NCBI GenBank assembly: GCA_958295975.1
Contig: OY282446.1
Location: forward strand, 310,001 to 374,000
Origin: Tepidiformaceae bacterium
GTDB taxonomy: Bacteria; Chloroflexota; Dehalococcoidia; Tepidiformales; Tepidiformaceae
Reading direction: 5' to 3'
DNA: 64,000 nt
In this document: in pieces, positions 9,256-58,629 of the stretch
How the letters are laid out: every line of letters starts with the position of its first letter
How positions within the stretch are numbered: the first letter of the stretch is position 1
The notes under the pieces: generated by a model
The model's database searches: none
The model's input: the letters and a program-made list of their open reading frames with translations, nothing else
What the model was told of the DNA's origin: nothing
Translations under genes and position numbers: made by a program

Positions 9256-10340
9256 GGCGCGCGCTCCCCGCGCATCAGGTTCACGAAACGGTCGAACATG
9301 CCCATGCTGTCCAGCGGCCCGGGGCTCGCCTCCGCATGATACTGGATGGCCATCACCGGTTCGTCGCGCATGATGATGCCCTCGACCGTGCCGTCGTTCA
9401 GGTTCACGTGGCTCACCTCCGCCGATGCGGCCAGCCCCTCGGGATCGACCGCGTAGCCGTGGTTCTGGGCGGTGACGACGACCGCCCCCGTGCGCTCGTC
9501 GCGCACGGGATGGTTGCCGCCGCGGTGGCCGAAGGGCAGCTTGAAGGTGTCCGCCCCCAGCGCCCGCGCGATCACCTGGTGGCCGAGGCAGATGCCGAAG
9601 AGGGGCACGGTCCCGATCAGGCGGCGCGCCTCTTCCACCTGCGCCGTCCGCACCCGCGGATCGCCCGGTCCGGGCGACCAGACCACGCCGTCGGGCCTGA
9701 GCGCGAGCGCGTCGTCCGCGCTGGCGTCCACGGGCAGCACGGAGACGGCGCAGCCGCGGGCCGCCAGCGAGCGCATGATGTTGCGCTTCACGCCGCCGTC
9801 GATGAGGGCCACGCGGAAGGCGGGCTCGGCGGGCCCGTCGGGCCATTCCCGGGGCCGCGCCGTCGAAACCCTTGCCGCCCAGTCCACGCCGTCGTAGGCG
9901 GGCATGGCGCGCAGGCGTTCGAGCGCCTCGCCCGCGGGGGCGGTCGTGATCGCGCCGGGCATGACGCCCTGGCGGCGGATGCGGCGCGTGACGGCGCGCG
10001 TGTCCACGCCCTCGATGGCCACGACGCCGCGTTCGGCGAGGAAGGCGCCGAGACTGCCGCTCGCGCGCGGATGGCTGGCGAAGGGCGCGATCTCCCGCAC
10101 GATCAGCCCGCGCGGCTGCATCGCCGCCGATTCCTCCACCGCCCCGTCCACGCCGTAGTTTCCGATCAGGGGGTAGGTGAGCGTGAGCAGCTGCCCCGCG
10201 TAGGAAGGGTCCGTCAGCATCTCCTGGTAGCCGGTCATGGAGGTGTTGAAGACGACCTCGCCCTCGGCGTGGCCGGGCGCGCCCGCCGCGCGGCCCTCGA
10301 ACACGGCGCCGTCGGCCAGCACCAGCCGCGCGCTAGCCAT
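9252..10340 (-). CDS. carA: Carbamoyl-phosphate synthase small (glutamine amidotransferase) subunit
   Basis: CarA hydrolyses glutamine and passes ammonia to CarB. The 362-residue protein has the conserved N-terminal domain (VVFNTSMTGYQEMLTDPSYAGQ, split here as VVFNTSMTGYQEM and LTDPSYAGQ) and a class I amidotransferase domain with nucleophile FGICLGHQ and the histidine/glutamate pair in AIQYHAEASPGP. ATG 10340 starts MASARLVLADG; the stop of pyrC overlaps it by 8 bases. Confidence 0.97.
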   Translation of the reverse strand: MASARLVLADGAVFEGRAAGAPGHAEGEVVFNTSMTGYQEMLTDPSYAGQLLTLTYPLIGNYGVDGAVEESAAMQPRGLIVREIAPFASHPRASGSLGAFLAERGVVAIEGVDTRAVTRRIRRQGVMPGAITTAPAGEALERLRAMPAYDGVDWAARVSTARPREWPDGPAEPAFRVALIDGGVKRNIMRSLAARGCAVSVLPVDASADDALALRPDGVVWSPGPGDPRVRTAQVEEARRLIGTVPLFGICLGHQVIARALGADTFKLPFGHRGGNHPVRDERTGAVVVTAQNHGYAVDPEGLAASAEVSHVNLNDGTVEGIIMRDEPVMAIQYHAEASPGPLDSMGMFDRFVNLMRGERAP

Positions 10341-11664
10341 GCGCGGCCTCCGCCGGGGCCGCGGCATGGCGCAGCACGCCCGCGACCACGACCGCCCGCA
10401 CCCGCCCGCGCAGCTCCATGCCCGCGAGCGGCGTGTTGCGCCCCTTTGAGGCGAAGCGCGCGGGATCGACGGTCCAGCGCTCGTCGGGGTCGAAGACGGT
10501 GGCGTCGGCGGCGAGGCCGGGCGTGAGCGTGCCCGCGCCGGGTGCGTGGCGGGCGAGCGCGAACGCCTCCGCCGGGCCGTGCGTGAGCGCGCGCAGGGCG
10601 GCGGCGGGATCGAGTTCGCCGCGCGCCGCCAGCGTCGTCACCGTGGCCAGCGCCGTCTCGGCGCAGCTGATGCCGAAGGGGGCGGCGTCGAACTCGCGCA
10701 GCTTCTCCTCGGGCGCGTGCGGCGCGTGGTCGGTGGCGATGGCGTCGATCACGCCCTCGTTCACGCCCGCCAGCAGGGCCCGCCGGTCGCGCTCCGTGCG
10801 CAGGGGCGGGTTCACCTTCGCCGACGTGTCGTAGGCGGGGGCCGCGCCGCCGCCCGCCACCGCCTCCTCCGTGAGGAAGAGATGGCTGGGCGTGACCTCG
10901 CAGGTGAGGGGCAGGCCGCGCTCCTTCGCGCGCGCGGCCTGTTCCACGCTTCCGGCGGTGCTGAGATGCATGAGGTGGAGCCGCCCGCCGGTGAGCTCGC
11001 AAAGGGCGATGGCGCGCGCCACGGCGGCCTCCTCGGCGGCGGCGGGCTGGCCGCGCAGGCCGAGGCGCTCGCCGGTCGCGCCCTCGTGCATGACGCCGCC
11101 GCCGCTGAGGGTGGGGTCGTCGCAGTGCTCGGCCACGACGAGGCCGAGCGCGCCCCCCAGCGCGAGCGCGTGGCGCAGCAGGTCGCCGCCGGCCACGGGA
11201 TCGCCGTCGTCGCTCACGGCCACGCAGCCCGCCTCGGCCAATTCGGCTAGCTCGGCCAGCCGCCGCCCCGCGCGTCCGGCGGTGACGCAGCCAACGGGCG
11301 CCACGCGCACGCGCGCATCGCGCCCCGCCCGCTCCAGCAGCCCGCGCACGGCGGCGCCGGAATCGGGCGGCGGCGTCGTGTTGGGCATGGCGCAAACGGT
11401 GGTGAAGCCGCCGCGCAGGGCCGCCTCCGTCTCCGTCGCGATCGTGCCCTTCTGCTCGAAGCCGGGCTCGCGCAGGTGGGCGTGCAGGTCGACGAAGCCG
11501 GGCGCGACCACGCAGCCGCGGGCGTCGAGCGTCTCCGCGCCGCCGGCGTCGAGCCCCGCGCCGATGGCGCGCACGCGCCCGTCCGCGATGAGCACGTCGG
11601 CCCGCTCGTCGCGTCCCGCCGCCGGATCGACGACGCGCCCGCCGCGGATGAGGAGGGCGCTCAC
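10333..11664 (-). CDS. pyrC: Dihydroorotase (class I)
   Basis: The 443-residue enzyme cyclises carbamoyl aspartate to dihydroorotate. It has the metal-binding DLHAHLREPG at residues 59-68, further ligands in VAEHCDD and HLMHLST, and the catalytic aspartate in IATDHAPHAPEEK. GTG 11664 shares GTGA with the pyrB stop. It lies in the expected order after pyrB, as in many Gram-positive and Thermus-type operons. Confidence 0.95.
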   Translation of the reverse strand: MSALLIRGGRVVDPAAGRDERADVLIADGRVRAIGAGLDAGGAETLDARGCVVAPGFVDLHAHLREPGFEQKGTIATETEAALRGGFTTVCAMPNTTPPPDSGAAVRGLLERAGRDARVRVAPVGCVTAGRAGRRLAELAELAEAGCVAVSDDGDPVAGGDLLRHALALGGALGLVVAEHCDDPTLSGGGVMHEGATGERLGLRGQPAAAEEAAVARAIALCELTGGRLHLMHLSTAGSVEQAARAKERGLPLTCEVTPSHLFLTEEAVAGGGAAPAYDTSAKVNPPLRTERDRRALLAGVNEGVIDAIATDHAPHAPEEKLREFDAAPFGISCAETALATVTTLAARGELDPAAALRALTHGPAEAFALARHAPGAGTLTPGLAADATVFDPDERWTVDPARFASKGRNTPLAGMELRGRVRAVVVAGVLRHAAAPAEAAHG

Positions 11665-50779: not shown

Positions 50780-51793
50780 TCAGCCGCCGATGTGCGACAT
50801 CTCCACGCGCGCGAGGCCGCTCGTGGCCTCCGTGCGCAGCTCCGAGTAGCGGTCCTCGCGCACGCGCCAGACGCGCGCGATGGCCTCCGACAGCTCGGCG
50901 TCGTCCGCGCCCGCGCGCAGGAGCGCGCGCAGGTCGAAGCCGTTGGCCCCGAAGAGGCAGGTGTAGAGCGAGCCCTCGGGCGAGAGGCGGGCGCGCGTGC
51001 AGTCGCCGCAGAAGGGCTCGGTGATGGAGGAGATGACGCCGATCTCGCCGCCCCCGTCGCGGTAGCGGTAGCGGCGCGCCACCTCGCCGCGGTAGTTCGG
51101 GTCGGCGGGTTCCAGCGGCAGGACGGCGTCGATGCGGGCCACGATTTCGGCGGCGGGCGTCACGTGGTCGAGCGCCCAGCCGTTGGTCGTGCCCACGTCC
51201 ATGTACTCGATGAAGCGCACGATGACGCCGCTGCCGTGGAAGTGGCGGGCGAGGTCGACGATGGTGTGGTCGTTCAGGCCGCGGCGCACGACGGCGTTGA
51301 CCTTGACGGGGCCGAGCCCGGCGGCGAGCGCCGCCTCGATGCCCGCGAGCACCACCTCGACGCCCGCGTCCACGTCGTTCATGGCGCGGAAGACGGCGTC
51401 GTCGAGCGAATCGAGGCTGACGGTGACGCGCCGCAGCCCGGCCTCGCGCAGGGGTGCGGCCTGGGCGGGCAGGAGCGCGCCGTTGGTCGTGAGCGTGAGG
51501 TCGCGCAGGCCCTCGACGGCGGCCAGCCGGCGCACGAGCCCGGGCAGCCCGCGCCGCACCAGCGGCTCACCGCCGGTGATGCGGATCTTCTCCACGCCAC
51601 GGGCGACGAAGAGCCGCGCCAGCCGCTCGATCTCCTCGTAGGTGAGCAGCTCCTCGCGGTCGAGGAACTGGAAGGCGGGGCCGAACACTTCCTTCGGCAT
51701 GCAGTAGACGCAGCGGAAGTTGCAGCGGTCGGTGACGGAGACGCGCAGGTCGCGGAGGGGGCGGTCGAAGGCGTCGCGGGCGTCGGCGGGCAT
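50780..51793 (-). CDS. moaA: GTP 3',8-cyclase, molybdenum cofactor biosynthesis
   Basis: MoaA is a radical-SAM enzyme that, with MoaC, makes cyclic pyranopterin monophosphate. The 337-residue protein has the N-terminal cluster C24-x3-C28-x2-C31 (CNFRCVYC), ITGGEPLVR, and a second C-terminal cluster ([14 protein letters not shown]...TCLF). It ends in the essential Gly-Gly (HIGG). It follows the MerR-type gene by 7 bases on the minus strand. No other moa genes are adjacent. Confidence 0.95.
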
Positions 51794-51800
51794 GGCGGGC

Positions 51801-52265
51801 TCAGTCGCGGGCGGCCACGGAGGCCGCCTCGGCGAACTGGCGCAGGAGGTCGTCGTGCTTCGCCAGCCGCTCGGCCAGCTGCGCGCGCATCTTCTCCATC
51901 CTCCCCACCTTCTGGTCGAGGATGGCGATCTGGCGGAGGGTGACCTCGCGCGCGATGCGGACCTTGCGCGCCTTCTCCCCGGCCCCGGCGTCCTTGCGCC
52001 ACTCGGCCCGGATCTGCGTGCGCACGTCCTCCGCCTCCAGCATCTCCTTGATGTCGGCGAGGGAGACGCCGAGGAGGTCCTTCAGCTCCCGCACGCGCTC
52101 GATGCGTTCCATGTCCTGAGGCGAATAGAGGCGGAAGCCGCCCTCCATGCGCGTGGGCGGCGGCAGCAGGCCGCGCTCCTCGTAGTAGCGCAGCGTGCGC
52201 TGCGTCAGGCGCGAGCGTTCGGCCGCTTCACCGATCTGGAGATAGCCGGGGGCGCTCTTCTCCAT
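51801..52265 (-). CDS. MerR-family transcriptional regulator
   Basis: The 154-residue protein has the N-terminal winged helix [26 protein letters not shown], then [32 protein letters not shown], and a coiled coil. There is no metal-binding cysteine cluster, so it likely senses something other than heavy metals. It lies upstream of moaA in one transcription unit and may autoregulate. Confidence 0.92.
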
Positions 52266-52551
52266 GGCTCGCCGCCAGTGTGGCGGCGGGCGCGGGGCGC
52301 GTCAATCACGCGCGCGCCCGTTTCGCCAATGCCCGCGCGGCGCGGGAAACGGGGCGCGCGCCATAAGCGGCCCCCGCGCCGTGAAAGATGCGTTAATGAC
52401 GGCGCGGCGCGGGCCGGAAGCGCTTGCCCCGCGCGAGCGGCGGGCGCTAGTGTCTCCCTGGCCGCGCCGGAGGGCGCGACCCCACCCGCAGCCATTCGAG
52501 CGGAAACCACGCCGCGGGCGCTGGCGCGCCCCGGGGGGAGTGCGCGCGCAC
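52266..52551. other. Divergent intergenic region between merR and the dnaA-like gene
   Basis: No gene is seen. A possible promoter for the dnaA-like gene is TTGCCC (52424-52429) with TAGTGT (52448-52453), 18 bases apart. No DnaA-box clusters (TTATNCACA type) or AT-rich unwinding element is visible, so this does not look like a replication origin. Confidence 0.5.
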
Positions 52552-53877
52552 GTGCCGGAGCAGGAGCGATCGGAACCGCGGGACGCGGCGCGCCTCTGGG
52601 AGGCGGCCCTCGGACGGCTCCAGATCGAGGTGAGCCGCGCCAACTTCGAGACCTGGCTGCGGGGCACGCGGGCGCTCGCGCGCGAGGGCGGCGCGCTGAC
52701 GGTCGAGGCGGGCTCCGCCTTCCGCGCCGACTGGCTGAACGGGAACCTCGCGGCCCTGGCCTCGCACTGCGTCAGCGAGCTCGCGCGCGAACCCCTGTCC
52801 GCGCGCTTCGTCGCGCCCGGCGCCGCCCGCGGCGGGGAGCGCACGGCGACCGCCGCCGCCCCCGCGAACGCGGACGAGCCCGCCGCATTGGGGCGCATCA
52901 ACCGCGCCTTCACGCTGAAGCGCTACTTCCGCTCGCACGGGAACGCCCTCGCCCTCGACGGCTGTCTGGGCCTCGTGGGGGAGGCGGAACCCGCCGCGCC
53001 CGCGATCAGCCCGGTGGTCGTGCACGGCGAGCCCGGCGCGGGCAAGACGCACCTGCTGCACGGCATCGCGCGGGCCGCGCGCGAACGGGGCTGGCCCGTG
53101 GCCTGCCTCAGCGGCGAGGGCTTCACCATGCGCTACCAGCGCGCCCTGCGCGACGGCGCCGTGGAGGCCTTCCAGGACGCCGTGCGGGGCGTGCGCCTGC
53201 TCATCGTCGACGACCTGCACGACCTCGTGGGGAAGCAGGGCACGCTGCGCGAGCTGCTGCACACGCTCGACGCCGTCGCGCACGCGGGCGGCGGCGCGGC
53301 GCTGGGGAGCGAGGCGCGCCCGCGCGAACTGGGGCTGCCGGAGCGGCTCAGCTCACGGCTGGAAGCGGGCCTCGTAGCGAACGTGACGCCCTTCGCCCCC
53401 GCCGAACGCCGCGCCTTCATCGAGGCGCGCCTGCGCGAACTGCGCCTCGCCCTGCCCCCCTGGTGCATCGACCAGCTGGCCAGCCGCCCCGGCCCGGCGC
53501 GCGCGACGCTGGGGAACGTGCACGCGGCGGCAGCGCTCCAGCGGCAGGGCGAGCTGGACGAGCTGCGTCTCGCCGCGGCGCTCGGCGCGGCGGAGCTGCG
53601 CGAGTGCGGCATGGAGACGGCGAAGGCGGCGATCGCGCGCATCGCCGCCCACTTCGCGCTCGCCGCGGGCGAGCTGGAGGGGCGCGCGCGCACGCGGGAG
53701 GCGACGCGCGCGCGCGCCGTGGCGGCGGCGGCGCTGCGGGAGGGGGGCCGCAGCCACGCCGAGGTGGGCGCGCTGCTGGGGGGCCGCGCGCGGGGCACGG
53801 CCGTGGGGCTGGCCGAACGGGGCCGCGACCTCGCCGCGAACGACCCCGCCCTCGCCGCCCTGCTGCGCGCGGGCTAG
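52552..53877 (+). CDS. DnaA-like replication initiator with degenerate DNA-binding motif
   Basis: The 441-residue protein has all four DnaA regions: domain I (ARLWEAALGRLQIEVSRANF ETWLRG), a variable linker, an AAA+ domain with Walker A GEPGAGKTH (159-167) and Walker B VDDLHDLVGKQ (219-229), LPERLSSRLEAGLVANVTPF, and a C-terminal helical domain. The DnaA signature that reads DNA boxes, normally close to GGRDHTTV, is GGRARGTAV here (410-418), and the N-part of the signature is also weak. No dnaN, gyrase or recF neighbours are present. It may be a paralogue with other targets or a highly diverged initiator. GTG 52552 is preferred over GTG 52540, which is too close to the GGGGGGAG. Confidence 0.8.
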   Translation: MPEQERSEPRDAARLWEAALGRLQIEVSRANFETWLRGTRALAREGGALTVEAGSAFRADWLNGNLAALASHCVSELAREPLSARFVAPGAARGGERTATAAAPANADEPAALGRINRAFTLKRYFRSHGNALALDGCLGLVGEAEPAAPAISPVVVHGEPGAGKTHLLHGIARAARERGWPVACLSGEGFTMRYQRALRDGAVEAFQDAVRGVRLLIVDDLHDLVGKQGTLRELLHTLDAVAHAGGGAALGSEARPRELGLPERLSSRLEAGLVANVTPFAPAERRAFIEARLRELRLALPPWCIDQLASRPGPARATLGNVHAAAALQRQGELDELRLAAALGAAELRECGMETAKAAIARIAAHFALAAGELEGRARTREATRARAVAAAALREGGRSHAEVGALLGGRARGTAVGLAERGRDLAANDPALAALLRAG

Positions 53878-53936: not shown

Positions 53937-53966
53937 TTGACGGAGTCCGCACAACCCCGGTAACAT
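53937..53966 (+). promoter_or_regulatory. Promoter of the OLD-family nuclease gene
   Basis: TTGACG (53937-53942) and TAACAT (53961-53966) are 18 bases apart. The leader would be about 25 bases and contains GGAGCAGG before ATG 53998. Confidence 0.65.
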
Positions 53967-53997
53967 GGGAAGGGCCGTATCGGCTTTCGGAGCAGGC

Positions 53998-55854
53998 ATG
54001 AAAATTATCGAATTCCAAGTGCGGAACTTCCGCAATATCGTTGACTCCAACCTTATCAGCTTGGAGTCTGACGTGACTTGTTTGGTTGGGAAAAATGAGT
54101 CTGGGAAATCCGCTCTCCTCGAAGCACTCTACCTGCTGAATCCCTCTTACCATGAAGATTTCAATATTAACGAACAGTATCCGAGGTGGCTGCTTACCCA
54201 AGATCGGCGCAGCGACGGTATTAGTGAACGTGCTCTGGTCACTGCGAACCTTCAGCTCGAAAAACCCGAACTCGCTGCGATTGAAGAGGTTCTTGGACCC
54301 AAGATTATCATCGACGAAAAAGTTACCGCATCCCGCCACTATAACGGCGGAATTCTCTGGGGAATTGAGTGTGACGAAAATGCTGCAATCCAAAATGCAA
54401 TTCGAGACATGCCAGCTGTAGTCGCCAAACACTTGGGCACATGTACAAATCTGCAGGAGCTCCGTGACTCTCTTACCAGCCTGGAAGTCTCGGACAACGA
54501 ACTGTCTTCTGATGACATAGAAGCGGCTACCTCTATCGTTGAAGATCGTGGCCTCGACACCGATTCCATCCACCAGATACTCGAACCAATACTCACCGAA
54601 CACTTGCCTCTAGTCTTCCGCTTCACACAGTATCAAACGCTCCCTGGCAGGATCGAACTCGCGGAGGTCATGAACGACAATCTCAGTAGTGATCCAAGTG
54701 CAACAGCACGATCATTAATGTCACGAGTGGATGCAGACTTCACCAGTCTTGCCACTGAAAACTATGAGTTGCGTCGTAGCGAAATGGAAGCAGTCGCAAT
54801 CGGTCTTACTCAGGAAGTTTTTGAATACTGGAAGCAGAATCCTGACCTCGAAGTTTTGATCGACACCGATAAAGCAGAGAATGGGCAGAAGTATATCGAA
54901 ATTCGCCTTCGTGATAGGCGAACCGGGTTTTCGAACAATTTCTCCCAACGATCTTCGGGGTTCCAGTGGTTCTTTTCTTTCCTTGCTGCGTTCAGTGAAT
55001 TTGAAGGAAGGGACAAACAGACTATTGTTCTGCTTGATGAACCAGCACTTACTCTCCATGGACGAGCACAGGCCGACTTTATCCGCTTCATTAACGAGCG
55101 CTTGGCACCTTCAAATACAGTAGTGTACACTACTCACTCTCCATTCATGGTGGAAATCAGTGCCCTCAACAGAGTGCGAATTGTTGAAGACAAGGGTCCG
55201 CCGAATGGATCCGTGACATCGGATGCAGTGCTTGCATCAGACCCGGACAGTCTCTTCCCACTCCAAGCCGCTCTGGGCTATGACATCGCACAGAACCTTT
55301 TCATCGGTCCAGACAACCTCGTCGTCGAGGGCATTTCGGAATTGGTCTATCTCAACTCCATGAGTAGCATACTGGCTAGCATTGATCGTACGCGCTTGGA
55401 TGAACGATGGCGCATACTTCCTGCTGGCGGAGCAACTAATATTCCTACTTTTGTCGCACTCATCGGTCCTCATCTTGGTGCAACGGTTCTGGCAGACTCG
55501 AATGCTAAGGGCATGCAAAGGATTGATGGAATGATCAAAAACAACCTCTTGAGCAAGAGTCGACTCATTTTCGTGAATGAGGTTCTTTCTGGGAAAAACG
55601 GAGATATTGAGGATATTTTCTCGACTGAAGATTACCTCGCTCTGTATAATGCAGCATTTGATCAGGATATCAAATCTAGCGATCTTCCTCCCGGCGACAG
55701 AATCGTCAAGCGAATCGAGTCTCGGATTGAGAAAGAGTTCGATCACTATCTCCCAGCTCAGTACATGACGCGCGCAGATCATAGTTTCAGTGAAGAAACC
55801 GTGATGAGGTTCGAGAAACTGTTTACTCGTATCAACGCAACGCTCAGCGACTAA
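53998..55854 (+). CDS. OLD-family ATP-dependent endonuclease (class 1 type)
   Basis: The 618-residue protein has an SMC/RecF-like ATPase (Walker A GKNESGKS 31-38, Walker B TIVLLDEPALTLHG, and TTHSPFMV) followed by a TOPRIM nuclease domain (LVVEGISELVYLNSM, ATVLADSNAKG, GDIEDIFS). OLD proteins act in anti-phage defence and nucleic-acid processing. There is no UvrD-like partner (GajB), so it resembles stand-alone class 1 members. G+C is about 48%, against roughly 70-75% on both sides, which is strong evidence of horizontal transfer. It has its own promoter and lies between a terminator and convergent genes, like a single-gene insertion. Confidence 0.88.
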   Translation: MKIIEFQVRNFRNIVDSNLISLESDVTCLVGKNESGKSALLEALYLLNPSYHEDFNINEQYPRWLLTQDRRSDGISERALVTANLQLEKPELAAIEEVLGPKIIIDEKVTASRHYNGGILWGIECDENAAIQNAIRDMPAVVAKHLGTCTNLQELRDSLTSLEVSDNELSSDDIEAATSIVEDRGLDTDSIHQILEPILTEHLPLVFRFTQYQTLPGRIELAEVMNDNLSSDPSATARSLMSRVDADFTSLATENYELRRSEMEAVAIGLTQEVFEYWKQNPDLEVLIDTDKAENGQKYIEIRLRDRRTGFSNNFSQRSSGFQWFFSFLAAFSEFEGRDKQTIVLLDEPALTLHGRAQADFIRFINERLAPSNTVVYTTHSPFMVEISALNRVRIVEDKGPPNGSVTSDAVLASDPDSLFPLQAALGYDIAQNLFIGPDNLVVEGISELVYLNSMSSILASIDRTRLDERWRILPAGGATNIPTFVALIGPHLGATVLADSNAKGMQRIDGMIKNNLLSKSRLIFVNEVLSGKNGDIEDIFSTEDYLALYNAAFDQDIKSSDLPPGDRIVKRIESRIEKEFDHYLPAQYMTRADHSFSEETVMRFEKLFTRINATLSD

Positions 55855-55876: not shown

Positions 55877-56221
55877 CTAGCGCGCGGCGCGCAGCAGCAG
55901 GAGGGCGGCGGCGCGCACGCCCTCCGCGCCGAAGCCCGCGATCACGCCCGCGCAGGCCGCGCCCAGGGGCGAGTGCGTCTCGCCGTCCCAGGGCGCGCTC
56001 CGCACCTCGACGACGGTCCCCGGGGCGGCGCGCACGGCGGCGGCCACGTCCGCGAGGTCCGCCGCATCAAGGGCGTCGCTGCAGAGGACGGCGTCCCCGT
56101 CCGCCCCCGCGAGGGCGGCGGTCACGTCCGCGGCGACGGCATAGCGGCGCAGTTCGACGCCGTCGGGGAGGTCGGGCGCGGGGGCGTCCGCGGGCAGCAG
56201 CACGCGCACGCGCGCCATCAC
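55877..56221 (-). CDS. Hypothetical protein coupled to the CoA-transferase gene
   Basis: The 113-114-residue product is Ala/Val/Asp-rich and looks like a small alpha/beta domain (VRVLLPADAPAPDLPDGVEL ... GVIAGFGAEG). Its start is either GTG 56221 or ATG 56218; both overlap the stop of the CoA-transferase gene (GTGA or TGATG), so it is translationally coupled. The first strand pattern resembles the N-terminus of NAD-binding dehydrogenases, but the length is too short for one. Confidence 0.6.
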   Translation of the reverse strand: MMARVRVLLPADAPAPDLPDGVELRRYAVAADVTAALAGADGDAVLCSDALDAADLADVAAAVRAAPGTVVEVRSAPWDGETHSPLGAACAGVIAGFGAEGVRAAALLLLRAAR

Positions 56222-58629
56222 AGGCTGCCAGCGGCGTAACGCGGCGCGTCGTGCGTCGCCCCGGCGGCATGGAGCGTCTCGATGGCGGCCTCGTCCATGC
56301 CGAGGAGGTCCGCGAACACCTCTTTATTATGTTCAGCGAACAGCGGGGCGGCGCGCGCGATGGCGGCGGGCGTCTCCGAGAAGCGCCAGGGGAAGCCGGG
56401 GAAGAGGTGCGTGCCCGCCACGGGATGGCGCACGCGCACGAAGAAGTCGCGGTCGTGGAGGTGGTTGTCGCTCACGATCTGCCAGTTGGCCATGACGGGC
56501 GCGGCGGCCAGCCCCGCCGCCTGCAGCGCTTCGGCGGCGGCGCTCACGGTGCGGCCCGCCGTCCACGCGCCGATGGCGGCGTCGATGGCGGGGGCGTGCG
56601 CGCGGCGTCCCGCGACCGTCGCCGCCCAGGGTTCCGCCGCCAGCGCGGGCGCGCCGATGGCCTCCGCGAGGGCCGCGAACTCGCGCTCGTCGCGCACGGT
56701 GAGCGCGAGCCAGTGGTCCTCGCCCGCGCAGCGATGGACGCCCTGCGGCGCATAGAGGGGCGAGGCGTTGCCGGCCGGTTCGGGCGCTTCCCCCGTGGCC
56801 GCGAAGGTGAGCAGCTCCTGTGCGAAGAAGGGCAGCACCGCCTCGAAGAGGGACATGTCGATCCAGCGCCCGCGCCCGTGCGCGCGCCGCCCGTGGAGGG
56901 CCGCGAGCATGGCCACGGCGCCGAGGTTGCCCGTGACCGGATCGGCATAGTAGCTGCCCGTGCCGAAATACTCGCCGGGGCCGTAGCCGAGCACGCTGGC
57001 GAGCCCGCTCATGGCCTCGATGTTGCTGCCGTAGGCGGAGTAGTCGCGCTCCGGGCCGGTCGCGCCGAAGCCCGCCATCGAGCACATGACGAGGCCGGGG
57101 TTGACCTCGCGCAGGACGTCGTAGCCGATGCCCAGCTGGGTCATGACGCGGGCGGCGTTGTTCTCGATCAGCCCGTCCGCCTTCGCAACCAGCGCGAGCA
57201 GGACGTCGCGCCCCTCCGCCGTGGCGAGGTTGAGGCAGACGGCGCGCTTGTTGCGGTTCAGCTTGTTGAAGTACCCGGCGCGGTGGTAGTGGTCGGGCCA
57301 GAGGTCGGGGGGCGTGTAGACGAGGGCGCGCGTGGCCGGCTTCGTGTGCAGCTCCACCTTGATGACGTCGGCCCCCAGGTCGGCGAAGTGCCGCCCGGCG
57401 ATGGGCCCCGCCCAGTTGGCCGTGACCTCGATGAAGCGCAGCCCCGCGAGTGGTCCGCGCAGCGCGGCGCCGGGAACGGGCGCGGAAGCGGGCGCGGGCG
57501 ACGGCGCGGCGGCGTTGGCCCACGGGAACCCGGGGGCGAGCACGGCCTCCGTGTGTTCGCCGAGGGCCGGAGCGGCGGCGACCGCGGCGGGCTCGTCCCT
57601 GCCCGCGGACAGCTTCCAGGGCAGGCCGGGGGCGAGCAGCTCGCGCCCCCCGACGCGCAGCGCCCCGAACCAGTGGCGCGCGGCCAGCTGCTCGCTGGCG
57701 GCCACGTCGGCCATCGTGTTCACGGGCGTGACGGCGATGCGCAGCTCCTGCGCGGCGTGGTAGATCTCCTGCTTGGAGCGCGTTTTCGCCCATGCCGCGA
57801 AGGCGTCCACCGCCTCGCCGAAGCGCGCGGTCCAGACCAGCGGGTCCAGCCACGACTCGTCCTCCAGCAGGTCGAAGCGCTCGATGAGCACGAAGAGGTT
57901 GGGGTAGGGCACGAGGTTGAAGAGGAAGACGAAGCCGTCGGCGCAGGGCGTGAAGGCGGCGCCCGTGCGGCGCTGGACCTGCCCCTGATGCGTCCAGATG
58001 GTGGTCAGCCAGGCGTGGTCGCTGAGCATGGCCTCCTGGTGGGAGAGCTCGATGCGCTGGCCGCGTCCCGTTTCGCGCGCGCGCCGCAGCCCGGCGAGCG
58101 CGGCCACGGCGGCGTGCGCGCCCGCGTGGAAGGCCGCCTGATGGCCGGGCAGCGCCAGCGGCTCGCGTTCGGGGTCGCCGCCGAAGTAGTGGTAGCCGCC
58201 CGTGGCGTACTCCGTGAAGGGGCTGGCCCGCCAGTGCGCGCGCGCGCCGCTTCGTCCGTAGGGCGAGAGCGAGACGACCACGGCGCGGTCGCTGGCGGCG
58301 GCGAGGCGCTCCTCGAGGCGGTCGGCGGCGGCCCCGCGCTCGCCGTGGACGACGATGTCGGCGCGCGCGGCGAGCCGTGCGAGGCGCGGATCGTCGGGCG
58401 CGAGCGCGGCATCGAGCTTGCCCGCCGCCAGCCAGGCGAAGAAGGCGCTCTCGCCCTCCACGAGGGGGGGCTCGGCGCGCGCGGGATCGCCAGCGGGCGG
58501 CTCCACCTTGACCACCTGCGCGCCGAGGTCGGCGAGCAGCCGTCCGCAGAAGGGCCCGGCCACGCCCGTGGCCAGCTCGAGCGCGACCACGTCGGCGAGC
58601 GGCGGCGGCAGGGAATCGGCGGCGGCCAT
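56218..58629 (-). CDS. Tandem-domain CaiB/BaiF class III CoA-transferase
   Basis: The 803-residue protein contains two complete CaiB/BaiF domains. The first begins VVALELATGVAGPFCGRLLA and the second LRFIEVTANWAGPIAGRHFA, each followed by LGAQVVKVE/LGADVIKVE. The class III catalytic aspartate is expected in a G-x-x-x-[DE]-[ML]-S segment. The second domain has RWIDMSLFEA (Asp present), whereas the first has QRIELSHQEA (Glu instead). The N-terminal half may thus be structural, mimicking a heterodimer. Acyl substrate unknown. TAGAAT lies 9 bases before ATG 58629. Confidence 0.9.
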   Translation of the reverse strand: MAAADSLPPPLADVVALELATGVAGPFCGRLLADLGAQVVKVEPPAGDPARAEPPLVEGESAFFAWLAAGKLDAALAPDDPRLARLAARADIVVHGERGAAADRLEERLAAASDRAVVVSLSPYGRSGARAHWRASPFTEYATGGYHYFGGDPEREPLALPGHQAAFHAGAHAAVAALAGLRRARETGRGQRIELSHQEAMLSDHAWLTTIWTHQGQVQRRTGAAFTPCADGFVFLFNLVPYPNLFVLIERFDLLEDESWLDPLVWTARFGEAVDAFAAWAKTRSKQEIYHAAQELRIAVTPVNTMADVAASEQLAARHWFGALRVGGRELLAPGLPWKLSAGRDEPAAVAAAPALGEHTEAVLAPGFPWANAAAPSPAPASAPVPGAALRGPLAGLRFIEVTANWAGPIAGRHFADLGADVIKVELHTKPATRALVYTPPDLWPDHYHRAGYFNKLNRNKRAVCLNLATAEGRDVLLALVAKADGLIENNAARVMTQLGIGYDVLREVNPGLVMCSMAGFGATGPERDYSAYGSNIEAMSGLASVLGYGPGEYFGTGSYYADPVTGNLGAVAMLAALHGRRAHGRGRWIDMSLFEAVLPFFAQELLTFAATGEAPEPAGNASPLYAPQGVHRCAGEDHWLALTVRDEREFAALAEAIGAPALAAEPWAATVAGRRAHAPAIDAAIGAWTAGRTVSAAAEALQAAGLAAAPVMANWQIVSDNHLHDRDFFVRVRHPVAGTHLFPGFPWRFSETPAAIARAAPLFAEHNKEVFADLLGMDEAAIETLHAAGATHDAPRYAAGSL

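Follow-up and report, generated by a model that had tools for sequence, protein, structure and literature searches.

A diverged DnaA, probably the sole replication initiator of the Tepidiformaceae, and candidate altered recognition elements upstream of dnaA and rplI-dnaB

The window analysed here, a stretch of 64,000 nucleotides (bases 310001-374000 of a genome assembled as a single contig of 2,401,284 bases and estimated to be 96% complete), carries a dnaA gene of 441 codons on its forward strand (positions 52552-53877, GTG start), which was identified by profile searches and an AlphaFold model. A Shine-Dalgarno run, GGGGGGAG, precedes the start codon (52533-52540, forward strand), and a putative promoter was read from the sequence at 52424-52453 of the same strand (-35 TTGCCC at 52424-52429 and -10 TAGTGT at 52448-52453, with a spacing of 18). 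DnaA is the starter of chromosome copying in nearly all bacteria, and an earlier note on this DNA had described the window protein as containing domains I, III and IV with an altered DNA-reading signature; both observations held. Pfam DnaA_N (domain I, 52591-52776, with the Trp6 equivalent kept) and Bac_DnaA (the domain III AAA+ module, 52900-53379) were matched at 35.1 and 85.9 bits, respectively, both above their cut-offs, and Bac_DnaA_C (the domain IV helix-turn-helix, 53632-53802) was matched at 26.6 bits, below its cut-off of 31.5 bits, all on the forward strand. The structural model (mean pLDDT 88.8) agreed with the presence of the three domains in a single chain, its best PDB match being B. 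subtilis DnaA (8btg) and its other top matches likewise DnaA structures (3r8f, 1l8q). Alignment placed the signature GGRARGTAV at 53779-53805 (forward strand) in place of GGRDHTTV, and the pattern GGRDH[ST]T is absent from the protein. Because the NCBIfam equivalog model TIGR00362 scored 170 bits, about half of its cut-off of 343.9, the protein is, as judged by profile, a strongly diverged full-length DnaA, that is, a DnaA variant.

The gene is bordered by a divergent MerR-type regulator (51801-52265, reverse strand), a neighbour conserved across much of the family, and by a MoaA-type radical SAM protein (50780-51793, reverse strand), also a conserved neighbour; both were assigned by Pfam and locus comparison. 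On the other side of dnaA lies a further conserved neighbour, a CaiB/BaiF-like CoA-transferase (56218-58629, reverse strand), named from its sequence without a family search. The order groEL-moaA-merR-dnaA-caiB is conserved in much of the family. Other Dehalococcoidia have a dnaA-obgE-nadD locus, and in one member of the class outside the family (L066) jag-yidC-rnpA-rpmH lies on the far side of dnaA. Between dnaA and caiB the window holds an OLD-family-like ATPase/TOPRIM gene (53965-55854, forward strand) with a G+C content of 48% versus ~73% for the genome, which looks like a recent insertion because caiB directly follows dnaA in the loci of relatives. The earlier note was also right that no dnaN adjoins dnaA: dnaN was located at 431 kb of the contig, 68 kb away.

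Profile searches of the genome returned two matches to PF00308, namely the window DnaA and a protein, encoded downstream of dnaB, that combines two DnaC/IstB-like ATPase modules, and a single match to PF08299 (domain IV), again the window DnaA. A second, canonical dnaA, for which the earlier note had suggested looking, was therefore rejected for this genome, and with domains I and IV present in the one DnaA found, the protein did not fit a DnaA paralogue or Hda. Across the family, a domain IV match was present in 34 of 38 genomes, among them every one of the 22 of good quality; exactly one match was found in 33 genomes and two in G016 alone. It is quite probable that the window DnaA is the sole replication initiator of its genome.

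To describe the reading head, 28 family members were aligned with E. coli DnaA, whose numbering is used here and whose base-reading residues are R399, P423, D433, H434, T435 and H439 (PMC7561715). In the window DnaA, D433 is replaced by Ala, H434 by Arg and T435 by Gly, and T436 is kept. His434 was absent from all 28 members (Arg in 16, Lys in 7, Ala in 3 and Pro in 2), and Asp433 was kept by 16 of them; eight members of the window's genus have Ser at position 433, and the window DnaA has Ala. The family DnaAs have also lost His439 and have a one-residue deletion in domain IV ahead of the recognition helix-turn-helix, and domain IV retains Arg399 (27 of 28 members), Arg407 and Thr436. Lys178, Asp235, Asp236, Arg227, Arg285 and Arg334 were invariant (28/28), and the conservation of K178, D235, D236, R285 and R334 is that expected of a DnaA; domain III of the window protein keeps the Walker A Lys, the Walker B Asp-Asp pair, the Arg finger R285, R281 and the sensor II residue R334, with Glu at the sensor I position Asp269. 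Outside the diverged group, 20 of the 23 listed DnaAs had His434, and the sister families keep RDHST.

All 22 good-quality genomes of this family (class Dehalococcoidia, Chloroflexota) carry the same DnaA type, and the family DnaAs made up one side of a branch with a support of 100 in a quick tree that itself warns of long branches. Since the substitutions are common to the whole family and conserved, the alignment indicates that they go beyond chance, and by the same comparison the divergence is family-wide and old. We consider it probable that the box specificity of DnaA has changed in this family, and such a shift in DNA reading would have occurred before the family radiated. A search of the available literature found no paper on the DnaA of this group.

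Few protein-DNA pairs of bacteria are as conserved as DnaA and its 9-bp box. The classical box, TTATNCACA, had zero occurrences in the window, in keeping with the earlier statement that no DnaA boxes lie near dnaA. Genome-wide there were 5 sites versus 5 for a reversed-pattern control, and six further family genomes had at most 2 sites above the reversed control. The enrichment or clustering of classical boxes that goes with a typical DnaA was not observed, and in the window's genome they occur at chance frequency.

The starting point of replication was assessed from the GC skew of sampled stretches together with gene orientation. In the window's genome (G000), dnaA lies away from the extremum of the sampled skew, and an origin at dnaA was rejected, there being no extremum at that position. 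The arrangement that the earlier note had named as contrary to its own reading, a sole dnaA at the skew minimum with classical boxes close by, was found in one part: the dnaA is the sole one, but it is off the extremum and TTATNCACA is missing from the window. Among complete relatives, G020 had a positive skew from 0 to ~1.2 Mb and a negative skew from 1.26 to 2.7 Mb, and G034 displayed the same kind of pattern; in both the skew dropped abruptly from about +0.2 to -0.2 from one 2-kb window to the next, and this switch was located between yidD and the gene preceding yidC, adjoining rpmH, rnpA, yidC, jag, parA and parB. Palindromes resembling parS were observed within ~0.6 kb at the switch, eight in G020 (L212 9937-10468) and six in G034 (L213 9731-10336). 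The parS sequence is the 16-bp palindrome TGTTTCACGTGAAACA and, with parAB next door, has the properties of a chromosomal parS. In the window's genome, two perfect copies of parS lie at 1,159 kb, in its yidD-yidC gap and ~0.8 Mb from dnaA. In all three complete genomes compared, rpoB points away from the parS-bearing region, and in two of them so does 16S; the 16S gene of G000, a genome in which the skew is weak, points towards the presumed origin.

An origin at the usual skew minimum was rejected as well: the skew changes gradually there, and the sharp switch lies at the opposite extremum together with parS, with rpoB orientation in agreement and the 16S gene of G000 in disagreement. The origin is most likely the rpmH-rnpA-yidD-[parS]-yidC-jag-parA-parB region, ~0.8 Mb from dnaA in the window's genome, and the polarity of the GC skew is apparently inverted in G020 and G034, implying a C-rich leading strand; in a canonical relative (G048) the skew looks conventional. 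The over-represented 8-mers and 9-mers of the origin gap were the parS palindromes only, the other 8-mers at the origin being no better represented than in random windows of G020, and TTATGTG did not cluster at the origin. Considered as a candidate box, the direct repeat CCGTKAAWG upstream of dnaA was not found in the origin gap. A palindrome that looks like a Gram-positive-type LexA box, GAACAAATGTTC, stands next to the last parS in both relatives (L212 ~10438-10449; L213 ~10309-10320).

Comparison of upstream regions revealed two conserved elements before dnaA. In the window, element E1 is CCATAA (52361-52366, forward strand; TTATGG on the opposite strand) and element E2 is GTGAA (52381-52385, forward strand), 20 bp after E1. 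The motif [AC]CATAA occurred upstream of dnaA in all 28 family members, with [AG]TGAA 18-20 bp downstream of it in 27, and, by a stricter count, 15 of the 28 dnaA promoters had a second [CG]ATAA (E3) 50 bp (±1) from the first and near the -35 element. Elsewhere in the sampled DNA the 50-bp pair was encountered once, in G034, directly before rplI, and it was present before rplI-dnaB in 12 of 16 genomes; among 9814 stranded 300-bp control segments a single one contained it, and that segment was the rplI-dnaB promoter. In the window's genus, E1 and E2 precede dnaA and E3 is absent, and the 50-bp pair was not found before rplI-dnaB. Downstream of rplI come dnaB, a gene for a DnaD-like protein and the gene for a tandem helicase loader. 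At L002 1240-2640 and L254 12728-14518 the loader encoded in such an operon combines two DnaC/IstB-like ATPase modules in a single chain, and double hits within single ORFs suggest that the two-module loader is widespread in the class.

Read on the complementary strand, the elements are TTATG or TTATC, which corresponds to the first half of the DnaA box. Because they contain this TTAT half, we infer that they may be sites of DnaA in which the second half has changed; that DnaA itself binds the operator has about even odds. The neighbouring MerR protein is an unlikely binder, as the element is found upstream of dnaA also at loci without an adjacent merR. In the genomes examined, the origin region had no cluster of candidate new boxes. 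Matches with a score of at least 12 within 2.5 kb of the origin numbered two in G020 and two in G034 (against a background of 0.44-0.46 per 10 kb), of which one lies just upstream of rpmH in these genomes; isolated matches preceded rpmH in G004 and G008, and none was present at the origin region of G000 or G021. Either the DnaA sites at the origin are more degenerate, or DnaA is recruited there in another way, or the operator is that of a different protein.

The reading that we prefer, with a probability of about 0.6, is that the window encodes the sole functional initiator DnaA of a lineage within the Dehalococcoidia whose DnaA shifted its reading specificity before the family radiated. This DnaA would oligomerise with ATP and load DnaB in the usual manner, and its site would match the classical box in the TTAT half (TTAT[GC]...) but differ from it in the CACA half. 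Sites would be arrayed as E1, about 12 bp, E2, about 26 bp, and E3 (the last missing from the window's genus), and through such arrays upstream of dnaA and of rplI-dnaB-helicase loader DnaA would regulate its own gene and couple the supply of initiator and helicase, with replication beginning at the distant parS-bearing rpmH-parB region. A bolder version is more tentative and somewhat less probable than its negation: that the family rewrote its initiation code as a whole, with a new TTAT[GC]-type phased E1-E2-E3 site controlling dnaA and rplI-dnaB-loader, dnaA having left the origin and the skew having become inverted with a C-rich leading strand. Of the three interpretations offered by the earlier note, a diverged initiator with non-standard boxes is the best supported, by a sole and family-wide diverged DnaA, albeit with no box cluster at the origin; a regulator of initiation gains indirect support from the conserved candidate operator upstream of dnaA and rplI-dnaB; and a paralogue does not stand, the other PF00308 match being a DnaC/IstB-like helicase loader.

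That last interpretation, in which the protein is a paralogue with other sites and a canonical dnaA is unassembled or elsewhere, is nearly refuted. It could appeal to a genome completeness short of 100% and to G016 (86% complete), where a canonical and a diverged DnaA are both present. None of the 22 good-quality family genomes, however, has a canonical DnaA, and the G016 exception can be discounted because its canonical dnaA lies on contig C35 (L252) beside an obgE that groups with the marine Chloroflexi record L091, outside the family, and the family-type obgE is on a separate contig, C15; C35 is a probable contamination. Only slightly less remote is relaxed selection, under which domain IV is decaying, GGRARGTAV is a broken reader and the genome is close to losing its dependence on DnaA. 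The window protein is indeed the most eroded of its genus (GGRARGTA versus GGRSRST), but the recognition helix is nearly invariant within that genus, and dN/dS in seven related pairs was 0.04-0.25 for domain IV, well below 1, and 0.04-0.17 for domain III, values that indicate purifying selection on every DnaA domain.

Two further explanations concern the role of the operator. DnaA might have been kept as a transcription factor regulating helicase supply, with initiation proceeding without recognition of DnaA boxes, for example by an initiator at parS/ParB or by loading on single-stranded DNA. The distance of dnaA from the presumed origin, the lack of a box cluster there besides the parS sites and the location of the conserved operator at promoters fit this explanation, which we nonetheless regard as improbable, given the conservation, as in a working initiator, of the ATPase, Arg-finger and sensor II residues along with the domain I Trp, and the presence of DnaB and a helicase loader. 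Less improbable, though still unlikely, is that the operator belongs to another regulator and that the changed box of DnaA is a different one: the element has only TTAT in common with the DnaA box, was not found clustered at the origin and, within the sampled DNA, is highly specific to two promoters. Against this, joint control of dnaA and dnaB by multiple phased sites is typical of DnaA, classical DnaA boxes precede dnaA in some sister families (L005, L016), and the element accompanies dnaA even where merR lies elsewhere, which makes MerR an unlikely binder. The diverged initiator remains our preferred reading. A family with a changed DnaA reading head and classical sisters amounts to a natural experiment on the joint change of initiator and site, in which the elements before dnaA and rplI-dnaB are a concrete, testable candidate for the new site, and programs that find origins by classical boxes or the usual skew polarity would probably mislocate them in family genomes.

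Compared with bacterial DnaA at large (TIGR00362; E. coli, B. subtilis), the window protein has the same domains I, III and IV, catalytic residues and predicted fold (8btg), but it reaches half of the equivalog cut-off, its equivalents of D433, H434, T435 and H439 are missing, its domain IV is one residue shorter, the gene is not beside dnaN or recF and classical boxes are not in surplus. DnaAs of other Dehalococcoidia belong to the same class but have the classical RDHST and a dnaA beside obgE, whereas dnaA of the family lies between merR and caiB. Thermotoga and the window's family are not close relatives. T. maritima DnaA is a working DnaA in which, one arginine aside, most of the classical base-reading residues are missing and which recognises a different 12-mer (PMC7561715); its known boxes cluster at oriC, five of them in a 149-bp minimal oriC (PMC10316083), whereas no origin cluster was found in the family. 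DnaA regulates its own gene, and DnaA boxes are predicted before Caulobacter dnaB (PMC8203912), so that sites before dnaA and the helicase gene are shared with the known DnaA regulon, although the candidate sites of the family are not TTATCCACA. A DnaA with another box thus has a precedent in Thermotoga; what is unusual is an entire family whose only DnaA is without the classical reading residues, and what is new is the CATAA element in every dnaA promoter of the family, with its matching 50-bp pair before rplI-dnaB-helicase loader.
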